DNA of 64,000 bases, from contig JAJPHB010000024.1 in assembly GCA_021325525.1 (NCBI GenBank), forward strand, positions 1 through 64,000. The letters run 5' to 3'. The notes below the pieces were generated by a model, which was not told the origin of the DNA, did not search any database, and worked only from the letters and a program-made list of their open reading frames with translations. Both the position numbers and the translations under genes were made by a program. Origin of the DNA: Alphaproteobacteria bacterium (GTDB lineage: Bacteria; Pseudomonadota; Alphaproteobacteria; ATCC43930; CGMCC-115725). Shown here piece by piece: positions 30,290-54,853 of the stretch; the stretch's first letter is position 1; every line of letters begins with the position of its first letter.

Positions 30290-31681
30290 CTAGGCTGCCC
30301 GCAGGCGCCGCCGCGCCCAGAGGAAGCCGATGAGCCCCGTCGCGAGCGCGGCCAGGCTCGCCGGCTCGGCGATCGGGACCACGCCCTCGCCGAGGAGGCT
30401 CCATTCATACTGGTCGCCTTGCAGGTCGGTGATGAAGAGCTCGGCCGCGTAGAGGAGGTCGGTATCGCCGAGCGCGGGCGCGAAGAAGATCGTGCCGCCG
30501 GTGTCGTCCGGCGTGAAGCTGAAGGCGTCGCCGCCGACCACGTTCTTGAAGGCGAAGCCGGCGAGAACAAGCGGCGTCGCCTTGCCGGCGGGAATGAGGA
30601 TGCGCACGCTCTTGCGGCTGCCTTGGGTCACCTGCTCGAAGTCGATCTTGGCGACGAAGATCGGCCCCGACGGAGTGTTGCCGCCGGGATTTCCGTTCCC
30701 GCCCGGATTTCCGTTCCCGCCCGGATTTCCGTTCCCGGCGGGATTGCCGTTGCCGCTCGGGGGGCAATTGCCGGTGCAGCTCGCAGGCTGCTGAGGACCC
30801 GAATTGCCGCCATTTCCCGGCGGGACGAATTGCGGCGCGAGCGGCAGGCCGAAGGGCGTCGAGAACGGGTTCGAGAGGCTTGGCTGGAAGGAAGGGAAGC
30901 CGCCGAGATCGGGCGGCCCGCCGAAACCGCCGAAGGGTGGGGAAAAGCCGGTCTCGCCATTGCCGCCGCGCTGGCCGATGCCGGCTCCGCCGGCATGCGG
31001 GTCGATATCGCCCGGCTCGTTCGCCCGGATCATCACGGTCATGTTCCATAGCACCGATTGCAGGTCGGCGGCGAGGGGGCCGGGCTCGGTCGGGTCGTCC
31101 TGGTTGCCATCGGCGTCGGGCGGCAGGATCGTCGTCGCCTCGCCCGGCTTCAATTTGACGCTCTTGCCTTTGAGGTTCGAGACGACGATGGCGCCGCGCG
31201 ACAGGGCGACCGTGGTGAGGCCGCTATCGGCGATGATCCATTCGAGGGTCGTGCCGCGGATGCCGATGGTCGCGACCGGCGTCTCGATATGGTAGGCTGA
31301 ATGCGGCAAGCTTCCGCTGGTCCAGCGGAAGACGCCGAGGAGCGCCTTCACCGCGACGGCGCTCTTGCCGGGATCGGGGTCGAAGACCAGCTTCGTCAGG
31401 CGCAGGCGGCTGTTCTCGCCCATTTCGAGATTGGTGCCGTCCTTGAAGATGATGCGGGTCGCGCTTTGCGGCCCGGTGACGACCTCCTCGTCCTGGAAAA
31501 CCTCCGAATCGACATAGAGCGTGCGCTCTTCGGTCTCGGTGATGCCCGAGACCTTGCGGACCACGGTTTGCGTGCTGCCGACGAGGGCGAGAGCGGAGGC
31601 CGGTCCGCTCGCGAGAATCGCCAGGGCCAGCGCCACGGCGCCGGGGAAGCATCGCTGAATGCGGCAGGATGCGATCGGCAC
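30290..31681 (-). CDS. FecR-domain secreted protein with PEP-CTERM-like C-terminus
   Basis: 463 residues. Signal peptide (ALALAILASGPASALA); FecR-like domain about 50-190 (RIIFKDGTNLEMGENSRL, ETPVATIGIRGTT); a Gly/Pro/Asn-rich linker with GNGNPGG repeats; a compact domain about 350-430. The tail is EPASLAALATGLIGF plus WARRRLRAA: Glu-Pro motif, hydrophobic helix, Arg cluster. That tripartite tail matches PEP-CTERM sorting signals processed by exosortases. FecR domains of this kind occur in periplasmic or surface proteins rather than only in iron sensing. The cyclase gene follows 9 bases after its stop, so the two are co-transcribed. Confidence 0.85.
   Translation of the reverse strand: MPIASCRIQRCFPGAVALALAILASGPASALALVGSTQTVVRKVSGITETEERTLYVDSEVFQDEEVVTGPQSATRIIFKDGTNLEMGENSRLRLTKLVFDPDPGKSAVAVKALLGVFRWTSGSLPHSAYHIETPVATIGIRGTTLEWIIADSGLTTVALSRGAIVVSNLKGKSVKLKPGEATTILPPDADGNQDDPTEPGPLAADLQSVLWNMTVMIRANEPGDIDPHAGGAGIGQRGGNGETGFSPPFGGFGGPPDLGGFPSFQPSLSNPFSTPFGLPLAPQFVPPGNGGNSGPQQPASCTGNCPPSGNGNPAGNGNPGGNGNPGGNGNPGGNTPSGPIFVAKIDFEQVTQGSRKSVRILIPAGKATPLVLAGFAFKNVVGGDAFSFTPDDTGGTIFFAPALGDTDLLYAAELFITDLQGDQYEWSLLGEGVVPIAEPASLAALATGLIGFLWARRRLRAA
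30681..30752 (-). repeat. Four 18-bp tandem repeats inside the FecR gene
   Basis: Consecutive 18-base units (30681-30698, 30699-30716, 30717-30734, 30735-30752); the middle two are identical and the outer ones differ at a few bases. They encode the GNGNPG-type linker and are a likely site of slippage-driven length change between strains. Not a CRISPR: there are no spacers. Confidence 0.85.
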
Positions 31682-47902: not shown

Positions 47903-49000
47903 ATGCTCGCCTACGCTATTCGCCGCGTTCTCCTCATGGTGCCGACTCTCCTCGGTATCATGGTGGTCAATTTCTTCGTCATCCAGGCGGCGCCGGGCGG
48001 CCCCATCGATCAGATGATCGCGCAGCTCAAAGGCGGCGGAGGCGGCGCCGCGGCGCGTGCCGGAGGCGGCGGCGGCAGCGAGGTCGCGACGGCGACCTCG
48101 GCGAGCCAGGCGGCGGCACAGTCGCGCGCCTCGCGCGGCCTCGACCCCCAGCTCATCAAGCAGCTCGAAAAGCAATACGGCTTCGACAAGCCGCCGGTGG
48201 AGCGCTTCCTCAAGATGATGGGGAACTATCTGCGCTTTGATTTCGGCACGAGCTTCTACAGCGACCGCAGCGTCGTCGGCCTCATCGCCGACAAGCTGCC
48301 CGTCTCGATCTCGATCGGCCTCTGGACGACGCTCGTCACATATCTCGTCTCGATCCCGCTCGGCATCCGGAAGGCGGTGCGCGACGGGACGCGCTTCGAT
48401 GTGTGGACGAGCACGGTCATCGTCATCGGCAACGCCATTCCGAGCTACCTCTTCGCCGTGCTCCTCATCGTGCTCTTCGCCGGCGGCAGCTATTTCCAGC
48501 TCTTCCCGCTGCGCGGCCTCGTCTCCGGCGATTTCTGGAGCCTCGACTGGCCGCACCGCATTCTCGACTATTTCTGGCACATCGCGCTGCCGATCCTGTC
48601 GCTCACTATCGGCAGCTTCGCCGGGCTCACCATGCTGACGAAGAATTCCTTCCTCGAAGAGATCAGCAAGCAATATGTGACGACGGCGCGCGCCAAAGGC
48701 CTTTCCGAGCGCCGCGTCCTCTACGGCCATGTCTTCCGCAACGCCATGCTGATCGTCGTCGCCGGCTTCCCGGCCGCGCTCGTCGGCATTCTTTTCACGG
48801 GCGCGCTCCTCATCGAGGTCATCTTCTCGCTGGACGGGCTGGGGCTCCTCGGCTTCCAGGCGGCGCTCAGCCGCGACTACCCCGTGATGTTCGGCACCCT
48901 CTACATGTTCACCCTGATCGGCCTCGTCCTGAAGCTCATCAGCGATCTGACCTATATGCTGATCGATCCGCGCATCGATTTCGCGGCGCGGCGCGGCTGA
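47903..49000 (+). CDS. yejB: Peptide ABC transporter permease YejB
   Basis: 365-residue inner-membrane permease. N-terminal helix [20 protein letters not shown]; a Gly/Ala-rich periplasmic stretch ([17 protein letters not shown]) before [20 protein letters not shown], as in E. coli YejB; the EAA loop is [20 protein letters not shown]. Ends [11 protein letters not shown]. The last base of the stop codon is the first base of the yejE ATG. Confidence 0.94.
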
Positions 49001-50052
49001 TGCGGCGAGAAGAGCGCTTTCTCGGCCTCAAGGTGACGCCGCTGACGCGGCGGCGCCTCGCCAATTTCCGCGGCAACCGGCGCGGCTTCTGGTCGCTCTG
49101 GATCTTCCTCCTGCTCTTCGTCGTCAGCCTCTTCGCCGAGTTCATCGCCAACGACAAGCCGCTCTTCGTCGACTACAAGGGCCGCTGGTACTTCCCCGTG
49201 CTCGTCACTTATCCCGAGACGACCTTCGGCGGCGACTTCCCGACCGAGGCCGATTACCGCGATCCCTTCGTCCAGAAGGAGATCGAGGCCAATGGCTGGA
49301 TGGTCTGGCCGCTCATCCCGTTCAGCTACAGCACCATCAACTACCACCTGCCGGTGCCGGCGCCGGCGCCGCCCTCGGCGGTCGATTGGCTCGGCACCGA
49401 CGATCAGGGGCGCGACGTCCTGGCGCGCCTCATCTACGGCTTCCGCATCTCCGTCCTCTTCGGCCTCGCCCTCACCGTCTTCTCCTCCATCATCGGCGTC
49501 GCCGCCGGGGCGGTGCAGGGCTATTTCGGCGGGCTCACCGACCTCCTCTTCCAGCGCTTCATCGAGCTCTGGTCGAACCTGCCGACGCTCTATCTCCTCA
49601 TCATTCTCTCCAGCATCGTGCAGCCGAATTTCTGGTGGCTGCTCGGCCTCATGCTGATGTTCTCGTGGATGTCGCTCGTCGACCTCGTGCGCGCCGAGTT
49701 CCTGCGCGCGCGCAATTTCGACTATGTGCGCGCGGCGAAGGCGCTCGGCGTCTCCGACCCGGTCATCATCGTCCGCCACGTTCTGCCGAACGCGATGGTC
49801 TCGACGCTGACTTTCCTGCCTTTCATCCTCAACGGCTCGATCACCACCTTGACGTCCCTCGATTTCCTCGGCTTCGGCCTGCCCGCCGGCTCGCCCTCGC
49901 TGGGCGAGCTCCTCGCCGAAGGCAAGGCCAACCTCCAGGCGCCCTGGCTCGGCATCACCGCGTTCCTGACGCTCGCGGTGATGCTCTCGCTCCTCATCTT
50001 CATCGGCGAGGCGGTGCGGGACGCGTTCGATCCGCGGAAGAATGTGGGATGA
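49000..50052 (+). CDS. yejE: Peptide ABC transporter permease YejE
   Basis: 350-residue permease. It opens LANFRGNRRGFWSLWIF, then IANDKPLFVDYKGRWYFPVL and WLGTDDQGRDVLARLIYG, all matching E. coli YejE. EAA loop AAKALGVSDPVIIVRHVLPN. It starts in the yejB stop (ATGA-type coupling). In relatives yejF follows at once; here a four-helix-bundle element of about 415 bases intervenes. Confidence 0.94.
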   Translation: MRREERFLGLKVTPLTRRRLANFRGNRRGFWSLWIFLLLFVVSLFAEFIANDKPLFVDYKGRWYFPVLVTYPETTFGGDFPTEADYRDPFVQKEIEANGWMVWPLIPFSYSTINYHLPVPAPAPPSAVDWLGTDDQGRDVLARLIYGFRISVLFGLALTVFSSIIGVAAGAVQGYFGGLTDLLFQRFIELWSNLPTLYLLIILSSIVQPNFWWLLGLMLMFSWMSLVDLVRAEFLRARNFDYVRAAKALGVSDPVIIVRHVLPNAMVSTLTFLPFILNGSITTLTSLDFLGFGLPAGSPSLGELLAEGKANLQAPWLGITAFLTLAVMLSLLIFIGEAVRDAFDPRKNVG

Positions 50053-50061
50053 GGGCAATTA

Positions 50062-50476
50062 AGCTATCAGCTATCAGCTGTCAGCTGTCAGCCGGGCAGC
50101 GCGGAGGACGGGATGCAGAACTTTCGCGATCTCAAGGCCTGGGAGAAGGCTCATAAGCTCGTGCTGGCCATCTACGCAGCGACATCGTCCTGTCCGAAAG
50201 AGGAACGTTTCGGATTGATGGCTCAGATGCGGCGGGCAGCTGTGTCGGTTCCGGCAAATATCGCGGAAGGATGCGTTCGTTCGAGCGATCCGGATTTCGC
50301 CAGATTTCTTAATACCGCCATCGGCTCAGCAAGCGAGATCGAGTATTTTCTGCTGCTTGCCCGCGACCTCGAATTCATCCCCGAGCTGCGATGCGAGCAG
50401 CTGACAGTCCAGGTCCAAGAAGTGAAGCGGATGCTGGCGGCGCTCTGATAGCTGAGAGCTGATAACTGATCGCTGA
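50062..50476 (+). mobile_element. Heptad-repeat element carrying a four-helix-bundle ORF, inserted in the yej operon
   Basis: Left arm (50062-50093) is AGCTATC AGCTATC AGCTGTC AGCTGTC AGCC. Right arm (50446-50476) is GATAGCT GAGAGCT GATAACT GATCGCT GAA, the inverse complement with the same 7-base period. The arms flank one ORF (50113-50448); the right arm overlaps its stop codon. The whole unit sits between yejE and yejF, which are adjacent in other genomes, and ends 4 bases before the yejF ATG. No transposase is present, so mobility would require a factor in trans. Related arms without ORF occur at 54787-54853 and 35902-36000. Confidence 0.55.
50113..50448 (+). CDS. Four-helix-bundle protein (S23/IVS family)
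   Basis: 111 residues of the family first known from intervening sequences of 23S rRNA genes and structurally similar to Avd of diversity-generating retroelements. Signature: FRDLKAWEKAHKLVLAIYAA, FGLMAQMRRAAVSVPANIAE, GSASEIEYFLLLARDLEFI. Function of the family is unresolved. GGAGGACGGG lies just upstream of the ATG. It is the only gene inside the heptad-repeat element. No reverse transcriptase or rRNA is nearby. Confidence 0.88.
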   Translation: MQNFRDLKAWEKAHKLVLAIYAATSSCPKEERFGLMAQMRRAAVSVPANIAEGCVRSSDPDFARFLNTAIGSASEIEYFLLLARDLEFIPELRCEQLTVQVQEVKRMLAAL

Positions 50477-50480
50477 ACCC

Positions 50481-52106
50481 ATGCCCCTCCTCGCCGTGCA
50501 AAACCTCTCGGTCCGCTTTGCCGCGGGCGACCAAGTCGTCGATGCGGTGAAAGGCGTCTCCTTCACGCTCGACCGCGGCGAGACCCTGGCGCTCGTCGGC
50601 GAGAGCGGCTCGGGGAAATCGGCGACGGCGCTCTCGGTGCTGCAGCTTCTGCCCTATCCGACGGCGAGCCACGGGGCCGGCAGCAGCATCCGCTTCGATG
50701 GCGAGGAGCTGATCGGCGCACCGCCGCGGCTGCTGCGCGAAGTGCGCGGCGGTCGCGTCGCGATGGTCTTCCAGGAGCCGATGACCTCGCTGAACCCGCT
50801 GCACACGCTGGAGCGGCAGATCGCCGAGACGCTCCGCCTCCACAAAGGCCTCGGCGATGCCGCGGCGCGCGCGCGGACGATCGAGCTGCTGCGTCTCGTC
50901 GGCCTGCCCGAGGCGGAAAAGCGGCTCGGCGCCTACCCGCATCAGCTCTCCGGCGGGCAGCGTCAGCGCGTCATGATCGCGATGGCGCTTGCCAACGAGC
51001 CCGGCCTTCTCATCGCCGACGAGCCGACGACGGCGCTCGACGTCACGATCCAGGCGCAAATCCTGAAGCTGCTCAAGGATCTGCAGGCGCGCCTCGGCAT
51101 GGCGCTGCTCCTCATCACGCACGATCTCGGCATCGTCCGCAAGGTTGCGGACCGCGTCTGCGTCATGACGGAAGGCCGCATCGTCGAGGCGGGTGCCGTC
51201 GCCGAGATCTTTGCCGCGCCGCGCCATGCCTATACGAAGCGGCTGCTCGCCGCCGAGCCCAAGGGCCGGCCGCGGAGCGTCGATCCGCCGCCGCCCGCGG
51301 TGCTGACGGCGGGGGACATCCGCGTTTGGTTCCCCATCAAGGCCGGCGTGCTGCGGCGCACGGTCGGCCATGTGAAGGCGGTCGACGGCGTCAGCCTCGT
51401 CGTGCGCGAGGGGCAGACGATCGGCGTCGTCGGCGAATCGGGCTCGGGCAAGACGACGCTCGGCCTCGCGCTTCTCCGCCTCCTCGCTTGCGAAGGCGAG
51501 ATCGCCTATGAGGGCGCGCGGCTCGACCGCCTTCCGGCGCGGCGCATGCGGCCGCTCCGCCGCGCCCTGCAGATCGTCTTCCAGGATCCGTTCTCGAGCC
51601 TGTCGCCGCGCCTCTCGATCGGCCAGATCGTCGAGGAGGGGCTGAAGGTGCACCGCCTCGGCGGCAGCGAGGAGGAGCGCCGCGTCCTCATCGCCGAGGC
51701 GCTGCGCGAGGTCGGGCTCGATCCCGAATCGGCCGATCGCTACCCGCATGAATTCTCCGGCGGCCAGCGCCAGCGCGTCGCCATCGCCCGCGCCCTCGTG
51801 CTGAAGCCGCGGATCATCGTGCTCGACGAGCCGACCTCGGCGCTCGACATGTCGGTGCAGGCGCAGATCGTCGATCTCCTGCGCGCGCTCCAGGAGCGGC
51901 ACCGACTCGCCTATCTCTTCATCAGCCATGATCTGCGCGTCGTCCGCGCGCTTGCCAGCGAGATCATCGTCATGAAGGAGGGGCGGGTGGTCGAGGCGGG
52001 ACCGGCCGGGCGTATTTTCGGCGCGCCGCAGCACCCCTATACGGCAGCGCTCATGGCCGCCGCCTTCAACCTCGAAGCCGTCGAGACGGGCGCCGTGCGG
52101 ATGTGA
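50481..52106 (+). CDS. yejF: Peptide ABC transporter ATPase YejF (two nucleotide-binding domains)
   Basis: 541 residues with two complete ABC ATPase domains. NBD1: Walker [10 protein letters not shown], signature [15 protein letters not shown], Walker [16 protein letters not shown]2: [36 protein letters not shown]. Each ends with the HPYT/HAYT-type sequence of oligopeptide ATPases. No Shine-Dalgarno is evident before ATG 50481, where the upstream bases belong to the inserted element. Confidence 0.94.
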
Positions 52107-54133: not shown

Positions 54134-54787
54134 ATGGCCGAAATGACCATCTATCTCGGCAACAAGAACTACTCCTCCTGGTCTCTGCGGCCCTGGCTTG
54201 CGCTGAAGCGGACCGGCGCCGCATTCGACGAGGTCGTCATTCCGCTCGACGAGCCGGCGACGCGGGCGAATATTCTGCGCCATTCGCCGACCGGAAAAGT
54301 GCCGGCTCTGAAGCATGGCGACGTCACCATCTGGGACAGCCTCGCCATCTGCGAGTACCTCGCCGAGACCTTCCCCGCGGCGCAGCTCTGGCCGGCGGAC
54401 AAGACGGCGCGGGCGGTGGCGCGCGCCGCCAGCGCCGAGATGCATTCGGGCTTCGCGGCGCTGCGCAGCCACCTGCCGATGAATGTCCGCTCCTCCTTCC
54501 CCAATCGCGGCATCACGCCCGAGGTGCAGGCGGACATCAATCGCATCACGGCGCTCTGGCGGGAATGCCGCAAGCGCTTCGGCGGCGGCGGCGAATTCCT
54601 GTTCGGCGCCTTCACCATCGCCGACGCCATGTTCGCTCCCGTCGTCAGCCGCTTCCGCACCTATCGCGTGGAGGTCGATGAGGCGACGCAAGCCTATCTC
54701 GACGCCGTCTGGGGGCTGCCCGCCTTCCAGGAATGGGCGACCGCCGCCCGCAACGAGCCGATGATCATCGAAAGCGCGGAGTTTTGA
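54134..54787 (+). CDS. Glutathione S-transferase family protein
   Basis: 217 residues. Thioredoxin-like N-terminal domain with LGNKNYSSWSLRPWLALKRT (catalytic Ser cluster), SPTGKVPALKHGD (cis-Pro) and DSLAICEYLAE (Glu/Ser for glutathione). All-helical C-terminal domain with FLFGAFTIADAMFAPVV. Start ATG 54134 after GAGAGGATT. The substrate is unknown. Its stop codon overlaps the first repeat of a heptad element. Confidence 0.92.
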   Translation: MAEMTIYLGNKNYSSWSLRPWLALKRTGAAFDEVVIPLDEPATRANILRHSPTGKVPALKHGDVTIWDSLAICEYLAETFPAAQLWPADKTARAVARAASAEMHSGFAALRSHLPMNVRSSFPNRGITPEVQADINRITALWRECRKRFGGGGEFLFGAFTIADAMFAPVVSRFRTYRVEVDEATQAYLDAVWGLPAFQEWATAARNEPMIIESAEF

Positions 54788-54853
54788 GCTTTCAGCTTTC
54801 AGCTCTCAGCGTTCAGTGAATGTGCGAAGCAAAGCTGATAGCTCGGAGCTGCC
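54787..54853. repeat. Solo heptad inverted-repeat element
   Basis: Left arm: AGCTTTC AGCTTTC AGCTCTC AGCGTTC; right arm: AGCTGAT AGCTCGG AGCTGCC; interior about 15 bases. Inverted and 7-base periodic like the element in the yej operon, but without ORF. It begins in the GST stop codon and ends 1 base before the ATG of the S9 peptidase. Its last repeat supplies the GGAG that serves as the peptidase's ribosome site. Confidence 0.7.

Follow-up and report, generated by a model that had tools for sequence, protein, structure and literature searches.

An S23 four-helix-bundle gene between inverted heptanucleotide arrays: a candidate minimal mobile unit at the yejE-yejF junction

The genes yejE and yejF are separated by 428 bp in the window, by which we mean the whole analysed stretch of 64,000 nucleotides. 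This gap holds a unit of 417 bp that consists of two repeat arrays (arms) and one open reading frame. The features were as follows.

48991 to 50052, plus strand: yejE, microcin C ABC transporter permease, upstream flank (PRK15021, E = 1.6e-161; start codon position approximate)
50060 to 50094, plus strand: left arm, five TCAGCNN heptads, first unit TAAGCTA
50113 to 50448, plus strand: S23 / 23S_rRNA_IVP four-helix-bundle ORF, 111 aa (PF05635, E = 1.9e-37; TIGR02436, E = 2.4e-35)
50442 to 50476, minus strand: right arm, five inverse-complement heptads
50481 to 52106, plus strand: yejF, ABC transporter ATP-binding protein, downstream flank (PRK15134, E = 1.1e-220, slightly below the curated cut-off)
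54785 to 54852, no strand assigned: ORF-less heptad pair, the second pair in the window, immediately after the end of a gene

The identities of yejE and yejF were confirmed with NCBIfam. The units of the left array are, in order, TAAGCTA, TCAGCTA, TCAGCTG, TCAGCTG and TCAGCCG, and those of the right array GCTCTGA, TAGCTGA, GAGCTGA, TAACTGA and TCGCTGA. The original prediction, made from the sequence alone, had placed inverted heptad arrays at both ends of a single S23/IVS-like ORF, and five units were read on either side. It had also claimed that the right arm runs over the stop of the ORF and ends 4 bases before yejF, and the coordinates agree: the first right-hand unit contains the TGA, and the last one stops 4 bases short of the ATG at 50481. 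When the whole genome was searched with TCAGCNNTCAGCNNTCAGC, allowing up to 2 mismatches, 52 matches were found versus 2 for the reversed control. Given this difference, and given that arms were found in none of 95 control segment pairs taken from the S23 loci, the arms are not due to chance. The heptads could have proved absent elsewhere in the genome, but arrays were found at about 8 further sites. PF05635 had one match in this genome, the yejE-yejF ORF itself. By its position between yejE and yejF, and not inside a 23S rRNA gene, the ORF is not a 23S rRNA intervening sequence (IVS), and an Rfam search of the locus gave no match. The window also contains an 18-bp tandem repeat with 4.7 copies (GTTCCCGCCCGGATTTCC) at 30677-30760.

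About 14 relatives have no unit between yejE and yejF: the two genes are directly adjacent, overlap (TGATG) or are separated by no more than 17 bp. The yejE-yejF unit is therefore an insertion, as had been predicted; the opposite outcome, with all relatives carrying the same ORF between non-repetitive flanks, did not appear. Only part of yejE was matched in congener G001, at a contig end, which makes this genome uninformative for the junction. Three genomes, G006, G015 and G039, all of genus g6, do carry an S23 unit at the yejE-yejF junction, with arms that differ in sequence and copy number. In G039 all ten units (10/10) have changed from TCAGC to TCAGT, and the S23 protein falls in the same clade as the other three yejE-yejF copies, on a longer branch (0.44 versus 0.15-0.18). 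Pairwise dS exceeds 1.5 already between yejE-yejF copies. No target-site duplication was visible by eye at the junction, filled and empty species being too diverged for the exact join to be placed.

The protein is a clear member of the S23 / 23S rRNA IVP family by sequence and by fold. Both family profiles matched far above their curated cut-offs (PF05635, 128 bits versus 33.8; TIGR02436, 121 versus 24), which bears out the S23/IVS-like assignment. The AlphaFold2 model of the window protein is a confident four-helix bundle (pLDDT 95) with 2gsc as the closest fold (TM 0.95); 2rld and Avd of diversity-generating retroelements (DGRs; TM 0.79, including the DGR ribonucleoprotein 8ub7) are also near. 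Both solved relatives, 2gsc and 2rld, contain five chains. Avd (4dwl, 8ub7) thus shares the four-helix fold and a distant sequence kinship with S23, in line with an earlier report (PMC10053308), and the ORF showed a weak bAvd match below the threshold; against the NCBIfam Avd profile it scored 32 bits, the cut-off being 80. Avd is a subunit of a reverse-transcriptase ribonucleoprotein. Its partners are a reverse transcriptase and a template repeat, whereas the window S23 has yejE and yejF as neighbours. Profile searches found no catalytic domain in the ORF; the unit, in which the PF05635 ORF is the sole ORF, encodes no nuclease, recombinase or reverse transcriptase of known type, and a phage collection gave no S23 match. 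As dN/dS of S23 was mostly 0.06-0.2, the gene is under purifying selection.

S23 genes are known as inserts in 23S rRNA genes (PMC11270868) and as lone "four helix bundle protein" genes, whereas here the gene lies within matched inverted arrays of 7/8-bp units. A GTDB-wide search with the window protein yielded 80 loci, and inverted tandem arrays were found beside nearly every ORF. For 127 scorable S23 loci, most of them obtained through such similarity, the best period was 7 in 92, 8 in 14 and another value in 3, with none in 18, while 4.5% of control segment pairs exceeded the threshold of this test. A stricter test required at least 3 units of one 5-nt core on each side, the two sides being inverted relative to each other. 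Of 125 S23 loci, which came from about a dozen phyla, 96 passed (86 at period 7 and 10 at period 8). None of the 125 passed at periods 5, 6, 9, 10 or 11, and neither did any control segment (0/95). Degenerate arms were visible in some of the 29 loci that failed. Arms were also found at 28/39 S23 genes from a family-wide scan of ten whole genomes, which is independent of similarity to the window protein. Around Avd genes of diversity-generating retroelements, no such 7/8-bp inverted arms were found (0/47). The TCAGC core alone is present in about a dozen phyla. Most of the S23 family thus has inverted 7/8-bp arms, and each protein subtype has a different repeat. The original prediction of a heptad-inverted-repeat element around an S23 ORF therefore held for the element itself and underestimated its scope.

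The composition of the units was examined in 417 units of the TCAGC class. The core is nearly invariant, with frequencies of.94 for T,.94 for C,.99 for A, 1.0 for G and.91 for C at positions 1-5, while the spacer at positions 6-7 carries only 0.07 bits of information; spacers of neighbouring units were identical in 0.116 of cases versus 0.080 expected. A fixed core with a random spacer is the appearance that a repeated binding site would have. Polymerase slippage, or expansion induced by hairpins, might instead create the heptad arrays at gene ends, with S23 genes merely landing in or tolerating them. In many repeat-rich bacterial genomes heptamers are the commonest long simple repeats, for which slippage has been proposed (Mrazek 2007, as cited in PMC4679880), and in Nitrospira DUF559 elements too are found inside heptad arms. 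Simple slippage is unlikely and was rejected, because it would copy the spacer together with the core, and neighbouring spacers differ; the agreement of the core with S23 subtype across phyla, the period of 8 in some subtypes and the lack of arms at Avd genes also speak against it. Overall we regard an origin of the arrays by slippage or expansion as very improbable.

The number of units per arm has a mode of five on both sides and mostly ranges from 3 to 6, the window having five in each arm. This mode, together with the five chains in 2gsc and 2rld, suggests one unit per subunit of an S23 pentamer. The spacers of the two arms of one locus agree weakly (0.31 versus 0.20 for other loci). Selection for a strict RNA hairpin was rejected on this basis, since the arms are not kept as perfect hairpins.

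Motif and protein vary together. One planctomycete genome (G058) contains S23 genes with different arrays, e.g. TCAGCNN, GTAGGTTY, GAAGTTAA, GTACCAA, GTCAAGA and GACAAGGA, and across seven multicopy genomes the best partner of a left arm was its own right arm in 42/47 cases. When 7676 pairs of loci with unrelated flanks were compared, motifs were more similar the more identical the proteins were (Mantel r 0.57, against at most 0.18 in 1000 permutations), and the core label changed 18 times on the S23 protein tree against a shuffled minimum of 25. Part of this correlation comes from shared descent, since each ORF travels with its arms. The core is nevertheless retained between S23 proteins that are just 55-60% identical, where unconstrained DNA should be saturated. 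In Bacteroidota (L087, L093, L115), two S23 genes with the distinct cores TAAGT and AAAGC/AAAGT were seen a few kilobases apart. The pattern in the sequences strongly suggests that S23 may bind its own array.

S23 is multicopy in many genomes, with up to 12 copies, and G058 has two S23 units at unrelated sites, with unrelated flanks, that share 88% identity across 452 bp. Repeat pairs without ORF were found at about 8 sites in the window's own genome and at many in genus g6, and all those scored (22/22) had the polarity of the S23 units. The pair at 54785-54852 folds as a hairpin (z -3.35) and follows a glutathione-S-transferase-like gene, named by inspection only; its junction is empty in congener G001. 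At the same gene end G003 (L307) carries an ORF-less pair or hairpin of TTAGC-type heptads in a genome without a PF05635 match. In a survey of the family, TCAGC arrays were present in 4/5 S23-positive versus 3/34 S23-negative genomes (Fisher's exact p of about 0.002, computed by hand and uncorrected for kinship). TCAGT arrays gave 30-188 pattern matches per genome in genus g6, compared with 0 in the window's genome and at most 1 in the other tested genomes. The idea that the hairpin type tracks the S23 type within one genome held in part only: G006 and G015 have many TCAGT hairpins, yet a single detected S23 with TCAGC arms (the G015 assembly being incomplete), and G003 also deviates. At three loci of genus g6 (L339, L341 and L148), TCAGT-type arrays were nested in or beside TCAGC-type pairs, as if unit types insert into each other.

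One convergent gene pair in Nitrospira holds an S23 unit in one orientation or the other, arms lacking an ORF, or arms around a DUF559 cargo. The orientation of the S23 unit is reversed in one species (L065 / L229 versus L062, L063 and L072), either by inversion through the arms or by independent insertion. At this convergent site (L219, L221, L222, L226, L230) the DUF559 (PF04480) endonuclease-like ORF has its own inverted CCTCCCCTTTGTAAGGGGAGG-type flanks and is nested in heptad arms; DUF559 may thus be a second family with matched repeat arms.

Of the 66 scorable units, 57 start at -18 to +22 bp relative to the stop codon of a gene with the same orientation. The S23 unit has little room for a promoter of its own and is probably read from the transcript of the upstream gene. 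On cyanobacterial plasmids S23 units with their own arms were found in cas operons, between cas6 and cas4 in Pseudanabaena (L354) and between cas10 and cmr3 in Picosynechococcus (L409). S23 has been named in CRISPR loci before (PMC3936711; PMC10910872), and the reported association probably reflects insertion of S23 units into operons. On a Nostoc edaphicum plasmid (L410), S23 lies between ribonucleotide reductase genes within GGGAGTA heptad arms that resemble cyanobacterial STRRs.

These observations recall miniature inverted-repeat elements (MITEs), which are likewise short, inverted and multicopy, occur as ORF-less intergenic pairs and have terminal inverted repeats, as 96/125 S23 loci do. 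The arms could accordingly be moved as terminal inverted repeats by a conventional transposase encoded elsewhere in the genome, the unit being an ordinary MITE with a passenger gene; inverted termini, short ORF-less copies and multicopy spread are all compatible with this. We consider it improbable. The arms around S23 consist of tandem repeats, the protein encoded by the full-length unit is S23, there is no transposase inside the unit, and no target-site duplication was visible by eye. Moreover, the termini are private to each S23 subtype and several types occur per genome, which would call for one matching transposase each, and a passenger would not be expected to persist across a dozen phyla with co-varying ends.

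REPtrons, in which a chromosomal gene lies between short inverted repeats and ORF-less repeat copies are scattered between genes, offer another comparison. The S23 unit resembles such REP and RAYT pairs in that ORF-less repeat pairs also occur elsewhere in the genome. It differs in that S23, unlike the RAYT tyrosine transposase that a REPtron encodes, is no Y1/HUH enzyme and its repeats are tandem 7/8-bp arrays, while REPs are single palindromes.

The main rival to a mobile unit is that the arms are a regulatory target: S23 would bind heptads in the mRNA of its own operon and in transcripts of the ORF-less pairs and control their stability or translation, and the units would be kept for this regulation. 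TRAP is an 11-mer ring protein in which each subunit reads one triplet repeat with free spacer bases between the triplets; S23 would resemble it only by analogy of working, having no sequence or fold relation to TRAP. A regulatory role would fit units at gene ends in operons, a right arm that ends 4 bases short of yejF, the hairpin fold of the ORF-less pair, the purifying selection on S23 and the repeated core with free spacer. It fits less well with the patchy presence, the empty sites and the different neighbours and repeats of each paralogue; no shared function among the neighbouring genes was noticed, and the arrival of the units is left unexplained. We judge a regulatory role to be a serious possibility at somewhat under even odds. 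It is compatible with mobility and may hold alongside it.

Our preferred reading, to which we assign a probability of roughly two in three, is a minimal mobile or mobilisable unit in which an S23 (IVP) gene is enclosed by two inverted arrays of its own putative binding sites. An S23 pentamer would bind the array as single-stranded nucleic acid with about one heptad per subunit, either as RNA of the host transcript or as ssDNA during copying; RNA is the somewhat likelier of the two, given the fold that S23 has in common with Avd. The S23 ring would mark or hold both ends of the unit, and the arms with the ORF, or the arms alone in trans, would be copied to new places behind genes. As the unit lacks genes for any known nuclease, recombinase or reverse transcriptase, we propose that the copying enzymes are borrowed from the host or from other elements, giving a recombinase-less, MITE-like spread of arms plus ORF. 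Being read from the upstream transcript, a unit would do little harm and would need no promoter of its own.

Tandem heptamer repeats of unknown origin have been described as cyanobacterial STRRs (PMC2670836) and as the TAACTGA repeats of Beggiatoaceae (PMC4679880); like the arrays reported here they are intergenic, often form hairpins and lie near gene ends or starts. The window heptads, being intergenic tandem 7-bp units able to form hairpins, are of the STRR type, and TAACTGA, read on the opposite strand, is TCAGTTA, a unit of the form TCAGTNN. In contrast to the S23 arrays, these repeats were described without a partner protein; for the heptamer repeats MacGregor proposed RNA-binding proteins of the S1, Csp and Csr families, not S23. 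No description of a link between S23 and heptad arms was found in the literature covered, mainly open-access papers, and the original prediction likewise knew of no account of such a vehicle for four-helix-bundle ORFs.

S23 units may thus explain heptanucleotide repeats such as cyanobacterial STRRs and TAACTGA as well as the reported S23-CRISPR associations. In its widest form, which we put forward tentatively and at a little less than an even chance, the proposal is that each subunit of an S23 pentamer reads one repeat of a 7-8-bp array, with a subtype-specific code, that the pentamers, acting in trans, cause a large part of the bacterial heptanucleotide repeats still without explanation (STRRs, TAACTGA and others), and that the units are cross-phylum mobile units with a reader protein and without a recombinase. 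S23 would then be a candidate molecular partner for heptanucleotide repeats that have been reported in bacteria without explanation, and a first concrete function is proposed for PF05635, a widespread family of unknown function. A simple reason is also offered for the presence of S23 genes within operons, those of CRISPR among them. Should binding be demonstrated, the S23 proteins would form a natural family that reads repeats, and the sequence of the array would serve as its code.
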